Of a stretch of 11,445 bases of DNA, positions 1,985-11,400 are shown one piece after another. Source of the DNA: Haloarcula sp. (GTDB lineage: Archaea > Halobacteriota > Halobacteria > Halobacteriales > Haloarculaceae); NCBI GenBank assembly GCA_028275075.1, contig JAQCNK010000311.1:1-11445 (forward strand). Reading direction: 5' to 3'. A program made the translations under genes and the position numbers. The notes under the pieces were generated by a model, which saw nothing but the letters and a program-made list of their open reading frames with translations, did no database searches and had not been told where the DNA came from. Within the stretch, counting starts at the first letter, position 1. Each line of letters opens with the position of its first letter.

Positions 1985-2355
1985 GAACTGACAGCGATAT
2001 CGTAGTCCGCTCTTCCGTAGGAGAGTGTTGATACAGTTCTCCCGAAGGGAGCGAAGATAGAAACTGACCGATAGACCGCTCAGATAGCTGGTTCTAATCT
2101 AGCTCGGTCTGTAGCAGAATAGCAAGACAGTACTACATCAACAATGTGCTACGCATGACCGATCGTAGACAGCGAAAGCTGAAACACCAGTTGCGTCGTT
2201 TCGGCATCTACCTCGGTCAAAGTGAGAAGGGTTTGGATTTGTCGTACGACAAGCACGAAACTATTTGCGTACGGTCATAATCTATTCTGTCCTGTGGAGG
2301 CCCCTGAAGACCGAGTCTTGGACCTGCCACAGACCACCCTATGGAAAGCTAACCG
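1985..2355. other. Gene-poor spacer between the arsenic unit and the zinc-finger gene
   Basis: I find no convincing gene in these 371 bases. Base composition is less GC-rich than the flanking operons and codon-position bias is lost in all frames. A small perfect hairpin, CTCCC-GAA-GGGAG at 2039-2051, lies about 55 nt after the last stop and could help end transcription, but it has no T-run. A 41-codon basic frame (2155-2280) is not supported. The palindrome at 2239-2252 is listed separately. Confidence 0.5.
2239..2252. promoter_or_regulatory. Perfect palindrome TTGTC-GTAC-GACAA (copy 1 of the shared operator-like motif)
   Basis: All 14 bases are self-complementary. The same TTGTC-N4-GACAA pattern recurs at 3910, 8524 and 11387. 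A TATA-like ACTATTTG follows 7 nt downstream, which would place a transcription start near 2290 and leave a leader of roughly 65 nt before the zinc-finger start at 2356. That is farther than at the other sites, so the target gene is uncertain. Confidence 0.6.
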
Positions 2356-2511
2356 ATGCCTCAATGTGCCACCTGTGGTCATCACGTATCCGAACAGTTT
2401 CAGCGCGTGTTCAGTGATACAACGGGAGACGTCTACGCGTGTCCGAACTGCTCGGCGAACGCAGGTATTGGGGAAGCGACCCAGAAACGACGAGTGGGTC
2501 AATCAGATTGA
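2356..2511 (+). CDS. Zinc-finger micro-protein (51 aa, haloarchaeal DUF7563-like)
   Basis: This short gene has two Cys pairs, C4-x2-C7 and C29-x2-C32, in the contexts QCATCGHHVSEQF and YACPNCSANAG. Together they form one treble-clef or zinc-ribbon-like zinc site. The layout (first knuckle, a 'RVF-D--G-VYACPNC' middle, a basic tail) matches the small CPxCG-type zinc-finger proteins that are abundant in haloarchaea, DUF7563-like as I recall. The ATG is at 2356; I see no clear Shine-Dalgarno. The stop lies inside an inverted repeat (GTCAAT-CAG-ATTGAC, 2498-2512), and another hairpin follows at 2519-2536. The family is thought to bind zinc and perhaps nucleic acid or protein partners; the function of this member is unknown. 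It is easily missed because a longer spurious frame overlaps it. Confidence 0.75.
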   Translation: MPQCATCGHHVSEQFQRVFSDTTGDVYACPNCSANAGIGEATQKRRVGQSD

Positions 2512-2690
2512 CATCCTCCTCCGCGTAAACGCGGAGAAATCCCCAGCGGTGGGAATTTCAGGTTCGCAGTCCAATCACCGGACTACCAGACCTTTCGGGC
2601 ACGGGTAGTCCCACGGTATCGGACTGGTGGACTGCTGGCGTTAACGAGAACTCCGTTCTCGTTCGCACATCAGAAATCAAATATTTCTGA
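2512..2690 (-). ncRNA. Run of hairpins resembling the right end / TnpB-associated RNA of an IS1341-type element, without tnpB
   Basis: Four structures follow in order along the minus strand. They are: TCAGAAAT/ATTTCTGA (2670-2690, 8-bp stem); AACGAGAAC/GTTCTCGTT (2643-2663, 9-bp stem, 3-nt loop); a nested stem of GCAGTCCA/TGGACTGC (2566-2573 with 2628-2635) enclosing ACCG/CGGT and GACTACC/GGTAGTC (2581-2587 with 2604-2610); and CTCCGCG-TAAA-CGCGGAG (2519-2536). On the minus strand the last is followed by GAGGATGTCA, which I recall as typical of the 3' ends of haloarchaeal IS1341-type elements. Archaeal tnpB genes are known to give sense-overlapping RNAs from this end. No TnpB zinc finger or RuvC motif can be read upstream, so this would be an orphan or decayed copy. 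It could also be an unrelated structured RNA. Confidence 0.4.
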
Positions 2691-3100
2691 GGACGGTCCC
2701 AAGCCGCCGTTACCCCTATCCTCGACCGTGTACGGCGTTCCAGTGTTGTTTTTGCCACGGGGACGCCAGCAAGCGTCAGCAGACTCGGGGGTATCGTCTG
2801 ACTCGCTATGAGCAGTCGGCACGTTGGCACACCCGTCGAGGATGTGACATTCACCGCCCACTCTTGCGGATACTGTCTCATTAGATGGGTGGACAGGCCA
2901 CCTCCGAAGGACGGTTCGGAATCCGCTCCGTTCCGACCGGTTCCTATCTATTACTAGCGTTGACTGTCACTTAAATGTCAGCCTTCCAAAAATTGGAGTG
3001 CTGTCGAACGTGGGTTTCTCCCAAGTGACGGCGCGTATCCACGGTGTGAACGCCGTGGTATTGCGCCTGTTCAGCGTATAAGCACAGCACCCTAGACCGG
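2691..3100. other. Non-coding or decayed stretch between the hairpin region and the regulator gene
   Basis: I see no supported gene. A 49-codon plus frame (2808-2957, with a CGYC motif) and minus frames ending at 2558 and 2670 show neither haloarchaeal acidic composition nor a recognisable family. They may be remnants of a mobile element. A small symmetric hairpin, TCCAA-AAA-TTGGA, lies at 2985-2997, and a larger one is listed at 3030-3067. Confidence 0.4.
3030..3067 (-). terminator. Long bulged hairpin downstream of the Bat-type regulator
   Basis: An outer stem GGCGC/GCGCC (3030-3034 with 3063-3067) and an inner stem CCACGG/CCGTGG (3039-3044 with 3053-3058) are joined through a short TA/TA pairing and bulges. 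The structure lies 33 nt beyond the stop of the minus-strand regulator gene, the right place for a 3'-end structure. There is no T-run immediately after it, so a terminator role is an inference. Confidence 0.3.
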
Positions 3101-3817
3101 TCACTTCGTCGAGACATACGATTCGACGAGGGCCGCCTCCGCTCTACGCAGCCTGTACGAAACTGTTGACCGTGGACAATCGAGCTCCGCTGCGAGCTCG
3201 TCAAGGGTCGTTTCGCGTGGGGTTTCGTAATAGCCCTCTTCGGCGGCTAGTTCGAGCACTCGGCTCTGCTCAGGCCGAATAGACACTGAGTCGAACAGCG
3301 TGAGCAACGGGCCAGTCGCGTCGCTCACGTGGTCGAAGTGGAAAGACAATCCGTCTTGGAGCAGGCCGCCTAACGTGTCATACAGCATGCCGACTTTTTT
3401 GTCGTCCTCCATGAGGATGCGCCAGCGTTCAGTGTCACCTTCACGGATAATCTCGAAGAGTAGTGCTCCGGTTATATACCGGTTAGTGATCGTTGGGACT
3501 GAGTCGCAGTGGACGAGATTTTCAAAATAGCTGTAGACGAGGCTTCGTTGTGAGCCATTTTCGAGTACGTCACTGTAGTGGCGGCCACCACAGGCCCGGT
3601 CACTGATACTCAACTGATTGTACGTCGACCCTGTCAACAGTGCTGTCGCTTTGTCGACGATTGAACTGGGGCCAGTTATGCGGTCCAACCGCCAGAGTTG
3701 CGCGTTACCCATCGAACAGAGAAACGTCGTCGAACGGGCCTCCGGTGTCTGGATGAACAGGTCCATCAGCTCGTCAGCGTCGGCTTCGTACCTGATTTCG
3801 AAGACGAACTCCCGCAT
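3101..3817 (-). CDS. Bat-type HTH transcriptional regulator (HTH_10)
   Basis: A 238-aa haloarchaeal DNA-binding regulator. Residues from about 180 to the end form the bacterio-opsin-activator HTH domain: a 'RPEQSRVLELAAEEGYYETPR' lead-in, then TLDELAAELDCPRSTVSYRL and RRAEAALVESYV, the hallmark of HTH_10. The N-terminal 175 residues form an alpha/beta sensor-like part as in Bat paralogues, with several Cys but no CxxC cluster that I can see, so its signal is unknown. It starts with ATG (3815-3817) and ends with TGA (3101-3103). It is transcribed away from the small membrane-protein gene at 3961, and the 143-bp gap between them holds a TTGTC-N4-GACAA palindrome. It is therefore the best local candidate to control that motif, and possibly its own gene. 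Relatives include DmsR and NarO-like regulators of anaerobic respiration, but nothing here identifies it as either. Confidence 0.88.
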   Translation of the reverse strand: MREFVFEIRYEADADELMDLFIQTPEARSTTFLCSMGNAQLWRLDRITGPSSIVDKATALLTGSTYNQLSISDRACGGRHYSDVLENGSQRSLVYSYFENLVHCDSVPTITNRYITGALLFEIIREGDTERWRILMEDDKKVGMLYDTLGGLLQDGLSFHFDHVSDATGPLLTLFDSVSIRPEQSRVLELAAEEGYYETPRETTLDELAAELDCPRSTVSYRLRRAEAALVESYVSTK

Positions 3818-3909
3818 CTACTCTAATCTCCCCCTCAACGATACAGTCAATTTCGGTTTGAATCGGAACACTATCGATGTTGAAGGGATGACGCGCCGGC
3901 TCTAGTTAC

Positions 3910-3923
3910 TTGTCGTAAGACAA
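3910..3923. promoter_or_regulatory. Palindrome TTGTC-GTAA-GACAA in the divergent promoter region (copy 2)
   Basis: The site is an inverted repeat with perfect 5-bp arms. It lies between the divergent regulator (start 3817) and the small membrane protein (start 3961). Two bases after it a TATA-like CTAAATTT (3925-3932) begins, about 29 nt before the ATG, as expected for a leaderless haloarchaeal transcript. An operator just upstream of BRE/TATA fits an activator; it might also regulate the divergent gene 92 bp away. Confidence 0.7.
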
Positions 3924-3960
3924 CCTAAATTTCAGGACGCCATGGTAATAAAGGTTGAGC

Positions 3961-4083
3961 ATGAGTAATACCACTTCTGATGGCTCTCTGCCGTGGTTCG
4001 TCAAAGTCGTCATAGCTGTCGCACTGATGGTCGTTCTATTCATCATCGGTATCGATCTGCTCACGTTCGCTGCAGCGTGGTAG
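3961..4083 (+). CDS. 40-aa single-helix membrane protein, possible oxidase subunit IIa-like
   Basis: A very short gene with a polar N-terminus (MSNTTSDGSLPW), one hydrophobic helix from about residue 12 to 38, and an end at AAAW. Size and layout resemble subunit IIa of Thermus ba3 oxidase (34 aa, one helix), and a ba3 oxidase operon lies 4.5 kb downstream. Sequence identity over so short a hydrophobic segment is not decisive, so the role is an inference. The ATG lies 37 nt after the shared palindrome and about 29 nt after a TATA-like box, which supports expression as a leaderless message. The 141 bases that follow to the next gene contain no other gene; they hold a degenerate half-match to the palindrome at 4139-4152. 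Confidence 0.65.
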   Translation: MSNTTSDGSLPWFVKVVIAVALMVVLFIIGIDLLTFAAAW

Positions 4084-4224
4084 CCAAACGAGGCTGCCCG
4101 CGTGGGTCACAGTCTGACAGTCAGTTCCTGCACGGTGATTGTCGGCTACCAAGGCTAGAGTTATGTAGACAGGTCAGATGTCGATAGGTAGACCAGTTCC
4201 ACCGCCTGCTACGGTGTGTTGCAT

Positions 4225-5103
4225 ATGAATTCAGGACTGAGCGGTACCCCAGAATCTGTAAGAAATGCTGTCGTTACTCCTGCATGGCTTGAAAAACACC
4301 TCCACGAGGTTGGATCTGAGTCCCCTGACCTACGCGTAGTGGAGGTAGACCTCAACACCGCGTTCTACGACCAGAGGCACATTCCAGGTGCGGTCTGTAT
4401 CGACTGGCAGCAACAGTTACAACACGCGACTCGACGGGATATCCCATCGGCAAGCGTGTTAGCTGATCTGCTCGGTGAGCGTGGCATCACAGAGGATTCG
4501 ACGCTAATCTTGTACGGTGATAACTCGAACTGGTTTGCGGCCCATCTGTACTGGATGCTTTCGTACTACGGTCACGAAGAGATGTACCTACTTGACGGAG
4601 GACGAGAACACTGGCTTGAGTCTGCGCGGCCGACAACGACTGCTGTGCCGTCCTATCCGAGACAGTCGTATCGGACACGTGGCCCGTACGAACACGTCAG
4701 AGCATATCGCAGCGCCGTCAAACGGGCACTATCGAAGCCAACGAAATTTGTCGATGTCCGGTTACCAGAAGAATATGATGGCACTCTTCTCGCCCCGCCA
4801 GGCATGACAGAGTCAGCCCAACGGGGTGGTCATATCCCCGGCGCAAAGAATATCGTTTGGTCGGAGAATCTCCAGTCCAACGGGCGGTTCAAATCGCCCG
4901 AGGCACTCGCAGAGCTCTACCGAAATCGGGGGATAGATAGAGACAGCGATGTCATCGTCTACTGTCGCATTGCCGAGCGGTCGTCATTGACGTGGTTCGT
5001 CCTGTCCGAGCTGCTGGGTTATCCATCGGTGCGTAACTACGACGGTGCGTGGACAGAGTGGGGGAATCTCATCGGTGTCCCGATTGCAACAGGCACAGAC
5101 TAG
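4225..5103 (+). CDS. Thiosulfate sulfurtransferase (two-domain rhodanese)
   Basis: This 292-aa enzyme transfers sulfane sulfur from thiosulfate to cyanide or another thiophilic acceptor. There are two rhodanese domains. The N-terminal, non-catalytic one contains RHIPGAVCIDW and ends near LLDGGREHWL, with GDNSN at the position of the active-site loop. The C-terminal one begins around FVDVRLPEEYDG, contains GGHIPGAKNIVW and carries the catalytic loop CRIAERSS with Cys247 (4963-4965). Most relatives read CRIGERSS, so the Gly-to-Ala change in the loop is slightly unusual. I chose ATG at 4225; the frame extends only to GTG 4216, which adds three residues. It has its own 141-bp upstream gap and no overlap with neighbours, so it may be transcribed alone. 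A link to the copper and oxidase genes is suggested only by position. Confidence 0.88.
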   Translation: MNSGLSGTPESVRNAVVTPAWLEKHLHEVGSESPDLRVVEVDLNTAFYDQRHIPGAVCIDWQQQLQHATRRDIPSASVLADLLGERGITEDSTLILYGDNSNWFAAHLYWMLSYYGHEEMYLLDGGREHWLESARPTTTAVPSYPRQSYRTRGPYEHVRAYRSAVKRALSKPTKFVDVRLPEEYDGTLLAPPGMTESAQRGGHIPGAKNIVWSENLQSNGRFKSPEALAELYRNRGIDRDSDVIVYCRIAERSSLTWFVLSELLGYPSVRNYDGAWTEWGNLIGVPIATGTD

Positions 5104-5126
5104 TAGAGCGTATTTCCACGGAGGTG

Positions 5127-5140
5127 TTGTCACAGGCCAA
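5127..5140. promoter_or_regulatory. Imperfect palindrome TTGTC-ACAG-GCCAA (copy 3, one mismatch)
   Basis: This site differs from TTGTC-N4-GACAA at a single base. Its end is 37 nt before the ATG at 5178, exactly the spacing seen at the perfect site before 3961. That equal spacing is the main reason for believing it. The TATA-like sequence behind it (ACTAAGT) is weak. Confidence 0.5.
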
Positions 5141-5152
5141 CCGGACGACTAA

Positions 5153-5169
5153 GTCACGGAGGACGTGAC
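5153..5169 (+). promoter_or_regulatory. Shine-Dalgarno GGAGG in the loop of a small hairpin
   Basis: GTCAC and GTGAC (5153-5157, 5165-5169) can pair, placing GGAGG (5158-5162) in the loop. It lies 10 nt before an ATG at 5173, which opens only a short basic frame, and 15 nt before the preferred ATG at 5178. It may mark a message that is not leaderless. Confidence 0.35.
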
Positions 5170-5177
5170 ACTATGGT

Positions 5178-5375
5178 ATGGGTTCGATGCCTGTCTCGCG
5201 ATTACCCCTCGTCGGGCTACTTGCAGTTCCGTTCGTGGTCACGTTCGTCGTCGTCCTCGAACCAGTCGCCTTCTTAGCGATTATCAATACGGTCCTCATC
5301 GTTATCGCCGTCCGTCTGATGTTCGGGTCAGACGACCTCGATACGCTCGAGCGTGGGTGGTCCCGGATACGATGA
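5178..5375 (+). CDS. 65-aa two-helix membrane protein, first gene of the copper operon
   Basis: A short hydrophobic protein with two predicted membrane helices (about residues 8-27 and 28-48) and a charged cytoplasmic-type tail, FGSDDLDTLERGWSRIR. Its stop overlaps the start of the next gene (ATGA at 5372-5375), so the two are translationally coupled. Position beside SafE-like and CcoI-like genes, small size and an 'DDLD' tail are loosely reminiscent of CcoS, the small assembly protein of bacterial cbb3 oxidases, but CcoS usually has one helix and I cannot claim homology. The start could also be the ATG at 5187. It is the first gene after the imperfect palindrome at 5127. Confidence 0.65.
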   Translation: MGSMPVSRLPLVGLLAVPFVVTFVVVLEPVAFLAIINTVLIVIAVRLMFGSDDLDTLERGWSRIR

Positions 5376-6151
5376 TGGCCGGCGGCCACGCGACAGGGGC
5401 TGTGACCGGCGATTTCGGCCTTGCTATCTTCGCTCTCGTCGGCCTTCTCGGCGGCGCGCACTGTCTGGGGATGTGTGGACCACTTGTCACACTCTACGCC
5501 GACCAGCTGGGAGACGACGGACCAATCAGGTGGGCTGAAATCCGCCAACATCTACTCTTCAACTTCGGACGAACGGTGAGCTATGCGTTGATAGGGGGGC
5601 TCATGGGACTGCTTGGGACCGTCGTCTACGACACGGCGGCAGTCGTCGCACTGGCCGATACCCTCCGGGCAGTCGCCGGAATCGCTGTTGGTGGATTTAT
5701 CATCGTCACTGGGGGACTGTATCTACGTACTGGGACGACGGCCGGTGCGGTGGCCAGCTTTGGGTCGGGGTCGCTGTTCTGGCGTCTCAGCACACGGTTA
5801 CATCAGCACGTCGATCAGTGGGTCGGCGGGCCACGTATCGTCGCGCTGGGTGCGGTTCACGGCATCCTCCCATGTCCGTTGCTTTATCCGGCATTTCTGT
5901 ACGCCTTCGCCATCGGTTCACCGGCCTACGGTTCGCTCGCACTGGCCGTACTCGGCCTCGGGACAGTGCCAGCGGTGTTCGGGTATGGCGTCGCGTTCAA
6001 CTCGTTTTCACCGCGATTCCAGTCTAGGCTCCACCGCACACTCGGTGCCGTGTTCCTGATTTTGGGGTATCTACCGTTGTCGCACGGGCTGCTAATTTTC
6101 GGTATCGAACTGCCGCACCCGACGATTCCGATATACCAACCCCTGGGGTGA
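5372..6151 (+). CDS. SafE/UreH-like membrane protein (sulfite exporter TauE/SafE-type, DsbD_2 fold), probable copper-related
   Basis: About 259 aa with roughly six membrane helices. The first helix carries GGAHCLGMCG (Cys31 and Cys35), and the second repeat contains HGILPCPLLYPAFLYA (Cys168) followed by LGLGTVPAVFGYG. These are the signatures of the TauE/SafE-annotated UreH/DsbD_2-type family that commonly sits next to CcoI and CcoS in bacterial cbb3 gene clusters. The frame is open upstream to 5165, but that extension is Arg-rich and hydrophilic, antisense in character, and overlaps the upstream gene. The ATG-ATG at 5372/5375, overlapping the previous stop, is the sensible start. Sulfite export is a generic annotation; the paired Cys motifs and the following Cu-ATPase make copper or thiol handling during oxidase maturation more likely here. 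Confidence 0.85.
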   Translation: MMAGGHATGAVTGDFGLAIFALVGLLGGAHCLGMCGPLVTLYADQLGDDGPIRWAEIRQHLLFNFGRTVSYALIGGLMGLLGTVVYDTAAVVALADTLRAVAGIAVGGFIIVTGGLYLRTGTTAGAVASFGSGSLFWRLSTRLHQHVDQWVGGPRIVALGAVHGILPCPLLYPAFLYAFAIGSPAYGSLALAVLGLGTVPAVFGYGVAFNSFSPRFQSRLHRTLGAVFLILGYLPLSHGLLIFGIELPHPTIPIYQPLG

Positions 6152-6155
6152 TTCG

Positions 6156-8480
6156 GTGGGGGACTGTACGCTCTGTGGACTGTCGACGCCGGAACCACCA
6201 CACGCTTCCCCGGACATTGACGGCAAGTACTGCTGTCGGGGCTGTCTCACCGTCGCTCGGACACTCGACGAACAGCCTGAGGAAGCTACTGTCGACGAAC
6301 ATCTCGACACAGGCCCAGCGACGTCGGACGTGGAGGGGGCCGAGGCGTATCTCGATGTCTCGGGGATGCACTGTGCGACCTGCGAGCAGTTCCTGGAGAC
6401 GACAGCGACCGACGTCGCCGGCGTCCGCGCCGCCGAAGCGAGCTACACTTCGGGAATGATGCAGGTGGTATACGACCCAGATCAAACGGGGTCGACGGCC
6501 GTGGCCGAGGGCGTCTCGACATATGGCTACAACGCCCGGAAGCGCACAGACACGACCGAGGACGACGACCAGCAGGCCGTAGGGCGCCTGCTGGTGGGTG
6601 GGTTTTTCGGGATGATGACGATGATGTGGTATCTTCTCTTTCTCTATCCGGTGTATCTCGGTGTCGGGCCGGCCGGCGGGCTCGTCGACCTCTCGGGGCC
6701 GGCCGGGGGGTATCTGTTCGCGAACGTCTGGGTGATGGCGACCGTCGTGCTGGGATACACCGGCTATCCGCTCCTCCGCGGAGCGGTGGTCAGCCTCCGG
6801 GTCGGCCACCCGAACATGGATTTGCTGGTTGCCGTCGCGGCGACGACCGCCTACGTCTACAGCACCATCGCAATGGTGCTCGGGCAGGTGGACGTCTATT
6901 TCGACATCGCAATCGTGGTCGTGCTCGCCGTGACAATCGGTGATTATTATCAGGAGCGCGTGCGTCGACGCGCAACCAGCCGCATAGCGGCTATTACCGA
7001 CGAGCGTAGCGAAACGGCGCGACGTCGAACAGCGGTAGGGACGGAGACGATCGACCACTCCGAAATTGGTGGCCGTGATGAACTGGTGGTTCGAGCGGGC
7101 GAACAGGTCCCAGTCGACGGGAGCGTCGTCGACGGAACGGGTGCAGTCGACGAGGCGTTAGTCACCGGGGAGTCACTCCCGATCACGAAAGGTCCCGGTG
7201 ACGAGGTTATCGGCGGGGGAACTCTCGTCGATGGCGGGCTGGTAGTTCGGGCGGATGAGGAGCCGACGAGCACGGCGGATAGACTGGTCGAGACCCTCTG
7301 GAACGTGCAGAGTGGTGTCGCTGGTCCCCAACGGCTTGTCGACCGCATCGCAGCGGTGTTCGTTCCGCTTGTGTTCGTGCTCGCAGGTCTGACCACCGTC
7401 GGCCATCTGGCGGTTGGGTCTGGTACCACTCCGGCGCTGTTGACCGGGTTGACGGTGCTGGTGGTCTCCTGTCCGTGTGCGCTGGGACTGGCGACGCCGA
7501 TGGCGGTGGCTGCGGGCATCCGTGATGCGCTTGCCGACGGTATCGTCATCACCGACAAGGGTGTCCTCGAGACGGCCACGGAGATAGAGACGGTCGCGTT
7601 CGACAAGACCGGGACGCTAACTACCGGTGAAATGACCGTTCGGGATGTCTTCGGGGACGACGCGACGCTCACGTACGCCACAGCGGTCGAGCAGTTCGCG
7701 ACCCACCCGGTCGCCGAGGCCATCGTCGCAGCCGGCGATCCACCGGACCATCCGGTCACTGACTTCGAAAACTATCCGGGCCAGGGCGTCGGTGCGACCG
7801 TCGGGGACCGGGAGGTCCTCGTCGGCGGCCACGACCTGCTGGCCGACCGCGGCTGGACCATCCCGACTGCGTTCGAGGAACAGTACCGGTCGGCACCGGA
7901 CGACACGGTACCCAGCTACGTGGGTTGGAACGGCCGCGTCCAGGGCGTCGTCGTCGCCGGCGACGAGTTCCGGACGGAGTGGGAGTCGGTTCTGGATAAA
8001 CTCGCTGAGACGTACCGTGTCGTTGTCATCACTGGTGACGACCCGGGCGCTGCCCGCCGGCTTGACGACCACCCCGCCGTCGACGAGGTGTTCGCCGGCG
8101 TCCCACCGGAGGCCAAGGCGGCCGTCGTTGAGCGGCTGACAGCGACTGAAACGGTCGCGATGGTTGGTGACGGGAGCAACGATGCGCCCGCACTCGCCGC
8201 CGCCGACGTTGGCATCGCGATGGAGCGTGGCACCCGCCTCGCTGTCGACGCTGCGGATGTGGTCGTCACCACCGACACCCTCACGCCGATCCCGTCGATC
8301 TTCGAGATGACTCATGGGACCCGACGTCGGGTCCGGGAAAACTTGGGCTGGGCCTTTCTCTACAACGGGATTGCCGTCCCACTCGCGGTGGCTGGACTGC
8401 TCAATCCCCTGTTCGCGGCCATCGCAATGGCGACGAGCAGTTTGCTCGTGGTGGTAAACTCGACGCGGTCGGTCAACTGA
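6156..8480 (+). CDS. Heavy-metal P1B-type ATPase, CcoI/CopA-like Cu(+) transporter
   Basis: This 774-aa membrane pump moves Cu(+) out of the cytoplasm using ATP. At the N-terminus is a Cys cluster, C4xxC7 and C26C27xxC30, typical of the extra metal-binding domain of CcoI/FixI-type pumps. A ferredoxin-like HMA domain follows with GMHCATC (Cys73, Cys76). Then come the membrane and catalytic parts: TGES at 337, the ion-path CPC at 439-441, phosphorylated Asp483 in DKTGT, HP at 517 and GDGSND at 671. In the last helices FLYNG and MATSSLLVVVNS fit the Cu(+)-specific P1B-1 signature. The start is GTG at 6156, 4 nt after the upstream stop, with GGGGTGAT just before it. Domain make-up and operon partners suggest copper delivery for the nearby oxidase rather than simple detoxification; that is an inference. 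Confidence 0.92.
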   Translation: MGDCTLCGLSTPEPPHASPDIDGKYCCRGCLTVARTLDEQPEEATVDEHLDTGPATSDVEGAEAYLDVSGMHCATCEQFLETTATDVAGVRAAEASYTSGMMQVVYDPDQTGSTAVAEGVSTYGYNARKRTDTTEDDDQQAVGRLLVGGFFGMMTMMWYLLFLYPVYLGVGPAGGLVDLSGPAGGYLFANVWVMATVVLGYTGYPLLRGAVVSLRVGHPNMDLLVAVAATTAYVYSTIAMVLGQVDVYFDIAIVVVLAVTIGDYYQERVRRRATSRIAAITDERSETARRRTAVGTETIDHSEIGGRDELVVRAGEQVPVDGSVVDGTGAVDEALVTGESLPITKGPGDEVIGGGTLVDGGLVVRADEEPTSTADRLVETLWNVQSGVAGPQRLVDRIAAVFVPLVFVLAGLTTVGHLAVGSGTTPALLTGLTVLVVSCPCALGLATPMAVAAGIRDALADGIVITDKGVLETATEIETVAFDKTGTLTTGEMTVRDVFGDDATLTYATAVEQFATHPVAEAIVAAGDPPDHPVTDFENYPGQGVGATVGDREVLVGGHDLLADRGWTIPTAFEEQYRSAPDDTVPSYVGWNGRVQGVVVAGDEFRTEWESVLDKLAETYRVVVITGDDPGAARRLDDHPAVDEVFAGVPPEAKAAVVERLTATETVAMVGDGSNDAPALAAADVGIAMERGTRLAVDAADVVVTTDTLTPIPSIFEMTHGTRRRVRENLGWAFLYNGIAVPLAVAGLLNPLFAAIAMATSSLLVVVNSTRSVN

Positions 8481-8523
8481 CCGCTTCGTTTTACCCGCCG
8501 CAGTGTCCGTCAGGAATCCCAGG

Positions 8524-8537
8524 TTGTCCTGTGACAA
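8524..8537. promoter_or_regulatory. Palindrome TTGTC-CTGT-GACAA upstream of the oxidase operon (copy 4)
   Basis: The inverted repeat has perfect arms. It ends 41 nt before the ATG at 8579. A TATA-like CTACAAAT (8543-8550) begins 5 nt after it, about 29 nt before the start codon. The layout matches that before 3961, so the oxidase operon appears to have its own controlled promoter even though the Cu-ATPase gene ends only 98 nt upstream. Confidence 0.7.
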
Positions 8538-8578
8538 GGTAGGCTACAAATCCATCGAGTCAATCCAATCGAAACAGT

Positions 8579-9079
8579 ATGGGTATGAAGACGGTGCAAA
8601 CAGGCACCATGGGGTCGATTGCAGAATCGGACGGACTCAGCGGCCGTCGATATTTTCACAAGATCTTGTCACGCGTGGTGATATTGGTGGCCGGACTCGG
8701 CTCTATCGGCGTTGCCAGCGCACAGGGGACGAGTGGTGGGGCAGGCGGGGGTGGCGGTTCCGGGCTCTACGTCACAGCAGCAGCGCTGACACTCACCGGA
8801 CTCGCTATCGGCGCAGTCTACCTGTTCAGCTGGCGCGACAGGCCGGAGCGGACGTTCACCCCGGCGACGCCGACGGAAGACAGGGTTCCGAACCGACACA
8901 CTGGACAGATGTACGAATCCAACGTCGCGTCGAGCGAAACCAAGTCGGTCGACCACGACGCGTACGACCCGATCGGAACCGGACTCCTTCTCGCGATGTA
9001 CTTCGCCGTAATCGCCCTCATGTGGCTGTTCATGTACTTCGTCGAGTTCCTCGGTAACGGACCAACGGTGGTGGGGTAA
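8579..9079 (+). CDS. Small ba3 oxidase subunit (CbaD/subunit IIa-like C-terminus)
   Basis: A 166-aa membrane protein, first in the oxidase operon. It has a hydrophobic N-terminal segment ending in ASAQ (about residues 31-49), which could be a signal peptide or an anchor, then a Gly/Ser-rich stretch and a second helix (about 62-83). A hydrophilic middle part follows, then a C-terminal helix, DPIGTGLLLAMYFAVIAL and onwards, ending FLGNGPTVVG. That last part resembles the single-helix subunit IIa (COX2A) of B-type oxidases and the haloarchaeal CbaD proteins. The start at 8579 fits a leaderless message; ATGs at codons 3 and 11 are alternatives. The stop lies 2 nt before the subunit II start. Family assignment rests on the C-terminal pattern and gene order. 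Confidence 0.7.
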   Translation: MGMKTVQTGTMGSIAESDGLSGRRYFHKILSRVVILVAGLGSIGVASAQGTSGGAGGGGGSGLYVTAAALTLTGLAIGAVYLFSWRDRPERTFTPATPTEDRVPNRHTGQMYESNVASSETKSVDHDAYDPIGTGLLLAMYFAVIALMWLFMYFVEFLGNGPTVVG

Positions 9080-9081
9080 CC

Positions 9082-9597
9082 GTGCACGTCCACAAATACG
9101 AGCGAATTTGGCTTGTCGCCGCACTTGCGCTCATCGTACTGTTCATCGGGACGGTGACCTACGGCGCCGTCGGTGCCGGTTACGGTATGGTCGACGCGAC
9201 AGGTGGGGAAGTCGACCCGACGAACCCGACGGCTTCGGACAACTTCCGGGAATCGGGAGTCTACAACGGTAGTGAACAGAACCACTACGACGTGTATATC
9301 GAGGCCGTTCAGTTCGCGTTCGTCCCGGGGACGAGCGAGCCTGTCCGTCTCCCCGCCAACAGCACCGTCACTTTCCATGTGACCAGCGGCGACGTGATTC
9401 ACGGGTTCGAGGTCGTCGGGACGAACATCAACACGATGGCCGTTCCCGGACAGGTCGCGACGGTCACTGTCGAGTTCGACGAACCCGGCGAGTACGGTCT
9501 CGTCTGTAACGAGTACTGCGGGAGCGGGCATCACACGATGGAGGGGTCGCTGGATGTCGTGCCGCCCGCGGAGTTCAACGAGAGCGAGGTGAACTGA
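9082..9597 (+). CDS. cbaB: ba3-type cytochrome oxidase subunit II (CuA)
   Basis: A 171-aa subunit that receives electrons from a small blue copper protein or cytochrome c and passes them to subunit I. One N-terminal helix (about residues 9-32) anchors an extracellular cupredoxin domain. The binuclear CuA ligands are complete: His107 in VIHGFEV, then Cys142, Glu144 (backbone), Cys146, His150 and Met153 in CNEYCGSGHHTM. The spacing matches the Thermus ba3 protein, where the middle residue is Gln, and so does the overall length. The start is GTG at 9082, 2 nt after the upstream stop. The stop is followed after 1 nt by subunit I, so the three genes form one operon. The surface is acidic, as expected outside a halophile. 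Confidence 0.93.
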   Translation: MHVHKYERIWLVAALALIVLFIGTVTYGAVGAGYGMVDATGGEVDPTNPTASDNFRESGVYNGSEQNHYDVYIEAVQFAFVPGTSEPVRLPANSTVTFHVTSGDVIHGFEVVGTNINTMAVPGQVATVTVEFDEPGEYGLVCNEYCGSGHHTMEGSLDVVPPAEFNESEVN

Positions 9598-9598
9598 G

Positions 9599-11347
9599 AT
9601 GGCACATCCACACAAATCAGAGCAGCCACAGGCGTACGAAGCCGACGAGACACAGCTGAAGGATCGCCTCGCTTTCATAGACCGGTACCCGACCGCCGCA
9701 CGAATCACTCGGCTCTCACTCAGTGTCTCGTTTACCGCACTGGCTATCGGTGCTATCCTGGGTATCATCCAGGCGCTGCATCGGACGAACGTCTTCCGGG
9801 GACTCATCAGCTCGGCCGACTACTACTCCGTACTGACGGGGCATGGCGTCCTGCTCGCGCTGTTTTTCACTATCTTCTTCCTGACGGGTATCTTCACCTG
9901 GGGAACCAGCCGAAGCCTCGGCAGGGAACTCCCCTCTCCGCGGTTCTCGCTGGCGTGGTTCCTCCTGATGCTCTCTGGGGCAGTGATGACCTCGACGGCT
10001 ATCTTCGGCGGGCTGGTCGGCCAGATACCGTTCTCGGCCGACGTCCTGTACACGTTCTATGCCCCGCTGCAAGCCCACCCGCTGTTCTACGCGGGACTGG
10101 CAGCCTGGCTCGTTGGGACGTGGCTCGCTGGAGCCGACTGGTTCCGGACGTACTACCACTGGCGACAGGACAACCCGGACGAGCGAATCCCGCTGCAGAT
10201 GTTCATGATCATGACGACGATGCTGATGTGGTACATCGCCACGCTCGGCGTCGCCGTCGAGGTGCTCGTCTTCCTCCTGCCGCTCTCGCTCGGCCTCATT
10301 GAGAGTGTCGACCCCTTGCTCACCAGAACGCTGTTCTGGTTCTTCGGTCACCCGGTCGTCTACTTCTGGCTGATGCCGGCCTATTTCGCGTGGTACACCG
10401 TCCTGCCAAAACTCTCAGGCGGACGGCTCTTCAGCGACCCGCTGGCCCGCGTCGTCTTTATTCTCTTTCTCCTGTTGTCGACGCCGGTCGGCTTCCACCA
10501 CCAGTACGCCGACCCCGGCGTCCCGGAGGGCTTCAAGTTCATCGCGATGACCAACACGATGTTCCTGTTGCTCCCGAGCTTCCTTACCGCCTTCACCGTC
10601 GTCGCGAGCATGGAGTACGGGGCTCGCCAGCGAGGCGGCACGGGATATCTGGGCTGGCTCAAGTCGCTTCCGTGGGGGAACCCGGCCTTTGCCGGCTGTG
10701 CGCTGGCCGGAATGATGTTCGCCGCCGGGGGCTTCTCGGGCATCATCAACGCAGGGATGAACATCAACTCGCTTATCCACAACACGTTGTGGGTTCCAGG
10801 GCACTTCCACCTCACCGTCGGGACGGCAAGCGCCCTGACGATGATGGCGATCAGTTACTGGCTCTACCCACAGATTACCGGCAAGCGACTGCAGTTCTAT
10901 GGCGTTGCCCAGATACAGCCGTATATCTGGTTCATTGGCATGGGGCTGATGTCCAACGCGATGCACCGAGCGGGGCTAGCCGGGGTCCCCCGACGCACCG
11001 CCGAACCGCAGTACCAGCAGTTCGACTTCGCACCGGTCCTGGGTTCGATGTCCGAGATGCGCCTCCAGATTGCTATCGGCGGGTCGCTGCTGACGCTGGG
11101 CGCGCTCATGTTCGTGTTCGTGATGGTCGGAACGTGGCTAGCCGAGCGTGGACGGGGTCGGTTGCGTGTCGACAGCCACCTTCCCAAACCCATCTCCGGG
11201 GCTTCGGACAGCCCAAGGGTGCTCGACAACGTCAAACTCTGGTTCCTCATCGCAGTCGTGCTCGTCGCCATCGCCTATGGCTTTCCCATCTACTCAATGG
11301 TGGCCGATGGTGTATTCAGCCCTGCTGCGCCGCCGTTCCCCGTGTGA
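9599..11347 (+). CDS. cbaA: ba3-type (B-family) cytochrome oxidase subunit I
   Basis: This 582-aa catalytic subunit has about 13 membrane helices and reduces O2 to water while pumping protons. All metal ligands are visible: His82 (LTGHGV) and His404 for the low-spin heme; His251 (FGHPVVYFW), His300 and His301 (GFHHQYADP) for CuB; and His402 (PGHFH) for the high-spin heme. Tyr255 is the Tyr that cross-links to the CuB His. From His251 onward the offset to Thermus ba3 numbering is a constant 18, so no segment is missing. There is no Glu in the HPxVY-type motif as in A-family enzymes (here HPVVY), which agrees with the B family. It ends 39 nt before another copy of the shared palindrome. No subunit III gene is present. 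Confidence 0.95.
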   Translation: MAHPHKSEQPQAYEADETQLKDRLAFIDRYPTAARITRLSLSVSFTALAIGAILGIIQALHRTNVFRGLISSADYYSVLTGHGVLLALFFTIFFLTGIFTWGTSRSLGRELPSPRFSLAWFLLMLSGAVMTSTAIFGGLVGQIPFSADVLYTFYAPLQAHPLFYAGLAAWLVGTWLAGADWFRTYYHWRQDNPDERIPLQMFMIMTTMLMWYIATLGVAVEVLVFLLPLSLGLIESVDPLLTRTLFWFFGHPVVYFWLMPAYFAWYTVLPKLSGGRLFSDPLARVVFILFLLLSTPVGFHHQYADPGVPEGFKFIAMTNTMFLLLPSFLTAFTVVASMEYGARQRGGTGYLGWLKSLPWGNPAFAGCALAGMMFAAGGFSGIINAGMNINSLIHNTLWVPGHFHLTVGTASALTMMAISYWLYPQITGKRLQFYGVAQIQPYIWFIGMGLMSNAMHRAGLAGVPRRTAEPQYQQFDFAPVLGSMSEMRLQIAIGGSLLTLGALMFVFVMVGTWLAERGRGRLRVDSHLPKPISGASDSPRVLDNVKLWFLIAVVLVAIAYGFPIYSMVADGVFSPAAPPFPV

Positions 11348-11386
11348 ACACCTGATTACCACGCAGGCGTTCGGTCTCCCACTCGG

Positions 11387-11400
11387 TTGTCACACGACAA
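11387..11400. promoter_or_regulatory. Palindrome TTGTC-ACAC-GACAA after the oxidase operon (copy 5)
   Basis: Here the symmetry extends to GG...CC on both sides (11385-11402). A TATA-like TCAATTTT (11409-11416) follows 8 nt later and an ATG occurs at 11439, 38 nt after the site. The layout is that of the other promoters and predicts a regulated gene starting at the window edge. Confidence 0.65.

Follow-up and report, generated by a model that had tools for sequence, protein, structure and literature searches.

The locus and its palindrome

The stretch analysed here, referred to as the window, comprises 11,445 nucleotides (nt) of a Haloarcula sp. draft genome (contig JAQCNK010000311.1) and carries the gene of a candidate regulator, which we call HTH10, together with genes for small membrane proteins, a rhodanese, a copper ATPase operon and a terminal oxidase operon (Table 1). 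The palindrome TTGTC-N4-GACAA occurs among these genes in four exact copies and one copy with a single mismatch, all correctly located by a first-pass annotation made from the letters alone; a second one-mismatch copy, at 3166-3179 within the HTH10 coding sequence, had been overlooked. On the co-occurrence described below, the palindrome is very probably the operator of HTH10.

In the draft genome of the same organism (2.06 Mb, 71.6% complete) the exact palindrome was found eight times and a reversed-pattern control not at all. Four copies lie in the window, three on contig C298 (locus L009) and one on contig C92, inside the Thy1 (thyX) gene. Contig C298 starts with the tail of a CoA-disulfide-reductase-like (CoADR-like)/rhodanese fusion, so named from NCBIfam scores under the curated cut-offs, and holds cydA, cydB, a ZIP transporter, a small membrane protein and a PAS histidine kinase. 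The same fusion comes after the oxidase operon in the relatives G013 (L040) and G002 (L042), and from this synteny the window and C298 are probably neighbours, so that seven of the eight exact sites fall in one cluster spread over two contigs. This supported the first-pass idea of a bound dyad marking a copper/oxidase regulon, as did the retention of the site in orthologous promoters. Two findings that its author had named as fatal, a motif equally common in coding sequence or missing from orthologous promoters, were not borne out: seven of the eight exact copies lie in the cluster and the remaining one inside thyX, and the site was kept in 11/11 loci for each of two promoters and before 12/12 cluster-type ba3 operons. 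The proposed scope, copper and oxidase genes, was right for the two operons of the window and too narrow for the regulon as a whole.

Table 1. Genes and palindromic sites of the window
Feature	Position	Strand	Remarks
Exact site TTGTC-GTAC-GACAA	2239..2252	.	Target uncertain; nearest open reading frame 103 nt on
DUF7563 zinc-ribbon protein, 51 amino acids (aa)	2356..2511	+	PF24444 1.4e-17; possible target of the 2239 site
HTH10, candidate regulator, HVO_2928_N + HTH_10 (sigma region 4-like)	3101..3817	-
Exact site between HTH10 and divergent small protein	3910..3923	.	37 nt before the small protein, 92 nt before HTH10
smp3961, 40-aa small membrane protein	3961..4083	+	Site 36-37 nt upstream in 11/11 loci
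Rhodanese, two domains, sulfurtransferase type	4216..5103	+	PF00581 4.9e-34, two stretches
One-mismatch site TTGTC-ACAG-GCCAA	5127..5140	.	37 nt before the 65-aa protein; relaxed site at 37 nt in 11/11 loci
smp5178, 65-aa membrane protein, first gene of the copper operon	5178..5375	+
DsbD_2-type transmembrane protein	5372..6151	+	PF13386 3.9e-46; start chosen by eye
Copper-type P1B ATPase with HMA domain	6156..8480	+	TIGR01511 411.8 bits (cut-off 397); PF00403
Exact site upstream of the oxidase operon	8524..8537	.	41 nt to the first start codon of the operon; 12/12 orthologous operons
Oxidase operon, first gene	8579..9079	+	No family match; presumably CbaE
Oxidase subunit II	9082..9597	+	PF00116 3.4e-11
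Oxidase subunit I	9599..11347	+	PF00115 1.7e-86; ba3 type as assigned in the first-pass annotation
Exact site before the gene leaving the contig	11387..11400	.	Gene by synteny the CoADR-like/rhodanese fusion

The copy at 2239 has no convincing gene at the usual spacing; G013 keeps an exact site matching it (L040:18978-18991), inside a 76%-identical stretch. G013 has an extra site as well (L040:19548), with an uncertain target. The best NCBIfam match of the rhodanese was PRK11493, under its cut-off, and smp5178 matched nothing in Pfam or NCBIfam. An Rfam scan of the window gave no match.

Architecture and distribution of the sites

HTH10 combines an HVO_2928_N domain (PF24281, 177.3 bits, gathering score 27) with a C-terminal HTH_10 domain (PF04967, 50.9 bits, gathering score 23.1). 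A Pfam search at E 0.001 found no PAS or GAF domain, so that the Bat architecture is not matched, and no cNMP-binding or Crp-type HTH domain, on which a CRP/FNR identity was rejected. A Foldseek comparison of the HTH10 monomer model with the PDB returned one match at E<=0.001, with an unconvincing TM-score; 5m86 came second. The HTH10 promoters of the window (3844-3857) and of ten relatives have in common a conserved element of CGAAA type, some 27-39 nt ahead of the start, likely their own B recognition element (BRE)/TATA.

The two promoters shared by 11 loci were compared in anchored alignments, one over all 11 and the other over the seven with 37-nt spacing. The arms of the site were 95% pairwise identical, whereas the spacers (32% and 43%) and the flanks (46% and 47%) had diverged. 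That the sites are copied repeats, already doubted in the first-pass annotation from the differing spacers, was rejected on this divergence and on their position before unrelated genes; a chance origin was rejected on the empty reversed control and on the concentration of the sites in the cluster. Four copies in 11 kb could in principle be duplicates, but either explanation now has a negligible probability. The spacers differ and yet are non-random: in a set of 120 distinct promoter-like sites, about 87% of half-sites have pyrimidine-purine as the two bases at the centre, the arm frequencies in this set being fixed by the search pattern and carrying no evidence.

Measured from the end of the site to the start codon, the distance was 36-37 nt for the 40-aa protein and 37 nt for the 65-aa protein (11/11 loci each), 37-38 nt for a 74-aa protein (3/3) and 38-41 nt for the first oxidase gene in the six of 11 loci with a properly placed start. 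Starts were taken from our own caller, which misplaced the latter gene in the other five loci, and these distances were omitted, as was the L009 value for the CoADR-like gene, which was an artefact caused by a partial hit. The site lies 71-72 nt before cydA in 3/3 loci, 36-37 nt before a small protein divergent from cydA in two loci and, by eye, 39-41 nt before a 43-aa protein preceding YeiH in five loci of other families. Of the four distances first proposed for the window, those of 37, 37 and 41 nt (sites 3910, 5127 and 8524) hold; the 38 nt given for 11387 are unconfirmed: there is an ATG at that distance (11439), but the contig ends before the gene does, and at the loci of two relatives (L042, L040) the following gene was called as starting some 130-136 nt away from the matching site. 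TATA-like boxes do stand between sites and genes, as had been noticed, and look weak by eye. The first genes after many sites encode small membrane proteins of 40-74 aa (L040, L042, L009, L142).

Searching 392 genomes of the order with HTH10 gave a match at E<=1e-50 in 57, of which 13 reached at least 52% identity and the remainder at most 46%. The recurrent parts of the cluster are HTH10, the 40-aa membrane protein, the rhodanese, the 65-aa protein with DsbD_2 and the copper ATPase, and the oxidase operon, to which G013 and G002 add the CoADR-like gene, the 74-aa protein and cydAB. The 13 genomes hold the exact palindrome 49 times and the reversed control 23 times, and 45 of the 49 sites lie in the cluster or beside HTH10 (42/46 if the duplicate copy in G388 is counted once). 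In G388 (L091, L092) the cluster appears twice with the same gene map, as identical copies towards both ends of one contig, perhaps an assembly overlap. Two loci, in G009 (L095) and G015 (L049), are relicts in which HTH10 is broken and no oxidase operon adjoins, and the sites remain. Within the genus, exact copies averaged 3.9 in the seven genomes with HTH10 at 52% or more, including G009 with its stop-containing HTH10, and 1.15 in the 20 without, including G015 (Mann-Whitney p 0.0017); a genus-level background as source of the sites was rejected by this difference. Across all 392 genomes the exact pattern, present at least once in 198, was no commoner than the reversed control, and whole-genome counts were therefore not used alone.

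A relaxed site was found within 350 nt of cydA in 11/12 genomes with HTH10 and in 1/18 without (Fisher p 2.5e-6), and before 12/12 cluster-type ba3 oxidase operons vs 0/18 next-best operons. Subunit I orthologs of at least 80% identity occur in 12 genomes, every one with HTH10 at 52% or more, and a second, more distant oxidase gene in HTH10-positive genomes had the site in 0/5 upstream regions. Promoters of the same genes thus mostly lack the site where the regulator is absent, and a regulator-operator pair therefore fits. In L110 (a Haloarcula rara plasmid), L134 and L142 the HTH10 locus is on a plasmid; regulator and targets may move between species in this way.

We also scanned all inverted repeats with 5-base arms, combining 1024 arms with 13 spacers, over up to 300 nt upstream of each of 80 HTH10 homologs, two of which (L126, L167) had less than 30 nt to search. 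TTGTC-N4-GACAA ranked first, in 15 of the 80 loci, and 33/80 carried a relaxed site upstream. A set of 102 partly overlapping loci, selected because they contain HTH10 or the cluster, yielded 173 relaxed sites: 138 promoter-like, 30 deep in coding sequence and five neither. Besides HTH10 itself, the genes adjoining them include cydA, the copper and oxidase operons, another subunit I, the rhodanese, YeiH, SBP56, an SQR-like flavoprotein, TusA, DsbA-like proteins and an IclR/ArsR-like regulator. For one example each, the best NCBIfam matches of YeiH, SQR-like and SBP56 were a YeiH-type putative sulfate exporter, a type III sulfide quinone reductase and a methanethiol oxidase, each under the curated cut-off.

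Gene company, cysteines and paralog clades

Among 73 non-redundant HTH10 homologs from named loci, 31 have the recognition helix SYRLR and the cysteines C76 and C104 without C34. Within 8 kb of these 31 lie a rhodanese in 19, cydA in 13, YeiH in nine and an SQR-like gene in seven, vs one, one, none and none for 19 homologs with another helix. At least one of these four genes stands within that distance of 24/31, and a copper or Zn/Cd-type ATPase of 0/31. Related regulator-palindrome pairs in other salt-loving archaea also mark sulfur genes.

In 25 sequences C76 and C104 each reach a conservation of at least 90%, and some clades of a wider set have lost them; H163 is invariant in the 25 and often replaced in the wider set. 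The clade of the window has C34 in addition. The strand layout of the monomer model (77-87/91-102) suggests that C76 lies near C104, and the cysteine pattern suggests that HTH10 is a cysteine-based sensor. A Natrialbaceae clade with C34, C76, C80 and C104 adjoins P1B ATPases, one of which, taken as an example, scored above the cut-off of the cadmium-type model TIGR01512, and 6/9 of its members have TTGGC-N4-GCCAA nearby. Four SBP56-linked members lack C104.

Paralogs with the helix QYRLTR or QYRITR have a different palindrome, GTTGG-N6-CCAAC, in 9/9 cases about 50 nt before the paralog (L154, L155, L158, L160, L161, L165, L166, L168, L174); L168 has two additional copies beyond it. It is conceivable, though speculative, that the family diversified by cysteine set and operator, with arms passing from TTGTC to TTGGC to GTTGG: two cysteines for reactive sulfur (cydAB, rhodanese, YeiH, SQR-like), three for copper/oxidase assembly as in the window, four beside Zn/Cd-type ATPases, and one or none with SBP56 (methanethiol-oxidase-like). 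If true, this would mirror in archaea the bacterial CsoR/CstR split, and the lineage of the window would couple sulfide-resistant respiration to copper delivery.

Proposed mechanism, rival readings and known systems

The regulon, its conservation and its co-occurrence with HTH10 were observed computationally across genomes, at single promoters and in part across recognition-helix clades. From the co-occurrence we consider it highly probable that HTH10 binds the site directly. In the proposed mechanism TTG(T/G)C-N4-G(A/C)CAA would be the operator of HTH10, which would contact it as a dimer with the sigma-region-4-like helix-turn-helix. Bound there, the dimer would occupy positions about 38-51 nt ahead of the start codon. 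Nearly leaderless transcripts are common in haloarchaea, and on such transcripts this would be just upstream of the BRE/TATA position. HTH10 would thereby co-regulate a second respiratory set made of the ba3-type oxidase, the copper ATPase/DsbD_2 module, cytochrome bd, the CoADR-like protein and several small membrane proteins, and probably also the rhodanese, whose gene in Haloarcula comes after that of the 40-aa protein and may be co-transcribed with it.

Several observations weigh against this proposal. No relaxed site stands in the 300 nt upstream of 47/80 HTH10 homologs, some of which have one elsewhere in the locus, and the Haloarcula rhodanese lacks its own site in five of the nine loci with a located start, the five whose distance was examined. 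G141 has HTH10 homologs and no site at the cydA tested, G280 was scored as lacking HTH10 and has TTGGC-N4-GCCAA before cydA, and in six genomes with 40-46% homologs the best ba3-type operon is without site. Genomes without HTH10 also hold exact matches, often fewer than the reversed control, and outside the 13 genomes with HTH10 at 52% or more the genome count alone is weak evidence; the co-occurrence tests, moreover, ignore the phylogenetic kinship of the genomes. The recognition-helix/operator code is partial, many SYRLR members having no site within 250 nt and four QYRLR/QYRLQ members carrying TTGGC-type sites. Winged-helix proteins also recur near sites outside Haloarcula (IclR/ArsR-like in 7/31 and TrmB-like in 4/31 loci of the C76 and C104 class).

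These winged-helix proteins, the PAS histidine kinase adjoining cydAB and the target-like site before HTH10 itself in 33/80 loci would be expected if another regulator read the palindrome and HTH10 were merely a fellow target in the cluster. We regard this as improbable, because genomes without HTH10 seldom have a site before cydA and have none before the oxidase operon, the palindrome differs in a clade with another recognition helix, the winged-helix genes occur in a minority of loci, and the kinase showed no DNA-binding domain in the 469 residues that the contig covers. As to the sense of control, HTH10 probably activates rather than represses, because the TATA-like boxes after the sites look weak, as in activator-dependent promoters, and DmsR, with the same type of HTH, is described as a positive regulator in the consulted part of PMC1447603. 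A repressor blocking the BRE/TATA region until the signal comes is a doubtful though serious alternative: with its downstream edge 36-38 nt ahead of several start codons, the site may reach into the region contacted by TFB, and the same two observations speak against it.

The signal, perceived through C76 and C104 (and C34 in this clade), is tentatively taken to be reactive sulfur or a sulfide-linked redox state, a reading to which we give nearly an even chance; otherwise it would be copper or low oxygen. Cytochrome bd resists sulfide, and reactive sulfur is favoured because of this and because rhodanese and other sulfur genes are the commonest company. A sulfurtransferase and a bd oxidase would also fit cyanide defence. 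A role of HTH10 as Cu(I) sensor, adjusting the supply of copper to the assembly of the oxidase, would account for the copper ATPase operon of the window, the three cysteines of this clade and the four-cysteine paralogs beside P1B ATPases. It is nevertheless unlikely, since cytochrome bd needs no copper and the class with C76 and C104 keeps company with sulfur genes and cydA and, within 8 kb, never with such ATPases. Low oxygen or a general redox signal, which would give haloarchaea an equivalent of the control that FNR or ArcA exerts over terminal oxidases, is in our judgement rather unlikely as well: YeiH, SQR-like, TusA and SBP56 genes are atypical for oxygen control, and the commonest neighbour is the rhodanese (19/31). 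Such a signal would agree with a site common to two terminal oxidases and with the HTH_10-type DmsR and NarO, which the consulted parts of PMC1447603 and PMC11218638 tie to anaerobic genes.

DmsR, NarO and Bat resemble HTH10 in having a Bat-type HTH and controlling respiratory or energy genes. In Bat, PAS and GAF domains precede the HTH (PMC11218638, in part), whereas HTH10 has an N-terminal HVO_2928_N domain and no PAS or GAF match; judged by architecture rather than by sequence comparison, it is compatible with the DmsR/NarO group (Bat-type HTH without PAS/GAF). Promoters of the Haloferax mediterranei denitrification regulon likewise have a semi-palindrome in common, CGAAYATDKTYG, whose mutation lowers nos and nor promoter activity and whose binding regulator is called undisclosed in the consulted parts of PMC10062603 and PMC11218638. 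It differs from TTGTC-N4-GACAA in sequence, in targets and in position, three promoters having it 66, 69 and 79 nt and a fourth 319 nt ahead of the start, vs 36-41 nt. In excerpts of PMC9774250 YgaV also controls respiratory genes, and SurR of Thermococcales is presented in part of PMC12162507 as an archaeal sulfur-responsive regulator of energy metabolism, in other organisms and another metabolism than HTH10.

The likeness to SqrR/BigR/YgaV and CsoR/CstR is one of function only, HTH10 having matched none of these families in Pfam. These bacterial sulfide and copper sensors exert cysteine-based control of sulfide genes, and the fold of CsoR/CstR serves copper or persulfide. HTH10 shares with reactive-sulfur sensors a conserved cysteine pair (C76, C104), and rhodanese, CoADR-like, SQR-like, TusA and YeiH genes adjoin the sites. 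The FNR/CRP-type operator, TTGAT-N4-ATCAA, is like the present palindrome in the 5-N4-5 layout and the outer TTG, but HTH10 has neither the cNMP-binding nor the Crp match.

Open-access literature searched for the motif letters, the regulator family and haloarchaeal oxidase or sulfide control gave no description, and a paper elsewhere may exist; in the part of one paper that names it, HVO_2928 serves solely to locate an antisense transcript. HTH_10 regulators with palindromic sites are a known kind of system; this regulon and pairing appear new. A single proposal made from sequence here covers regulator, operator and targets, with individual promoters compared as presence/absence controls; it is testable in cultivable Haloarcula or Halorubrum. 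One switch would tie terminal-oxidase choice to copper delivery and to the handling of sulfur, and a partial code relating recognition helix to operator can be read from the family.

Two further features of the window were noticed. Two small proteins after an ArsA-type ATPase (1437-1984) have C-termini with double cysteines (GGGCC, DGCC). The roughly 600 bases between the DUF7563 reading frame and HTH10 (2512-3100) hold no convincing gene and are possibly the remains of a mobile element.

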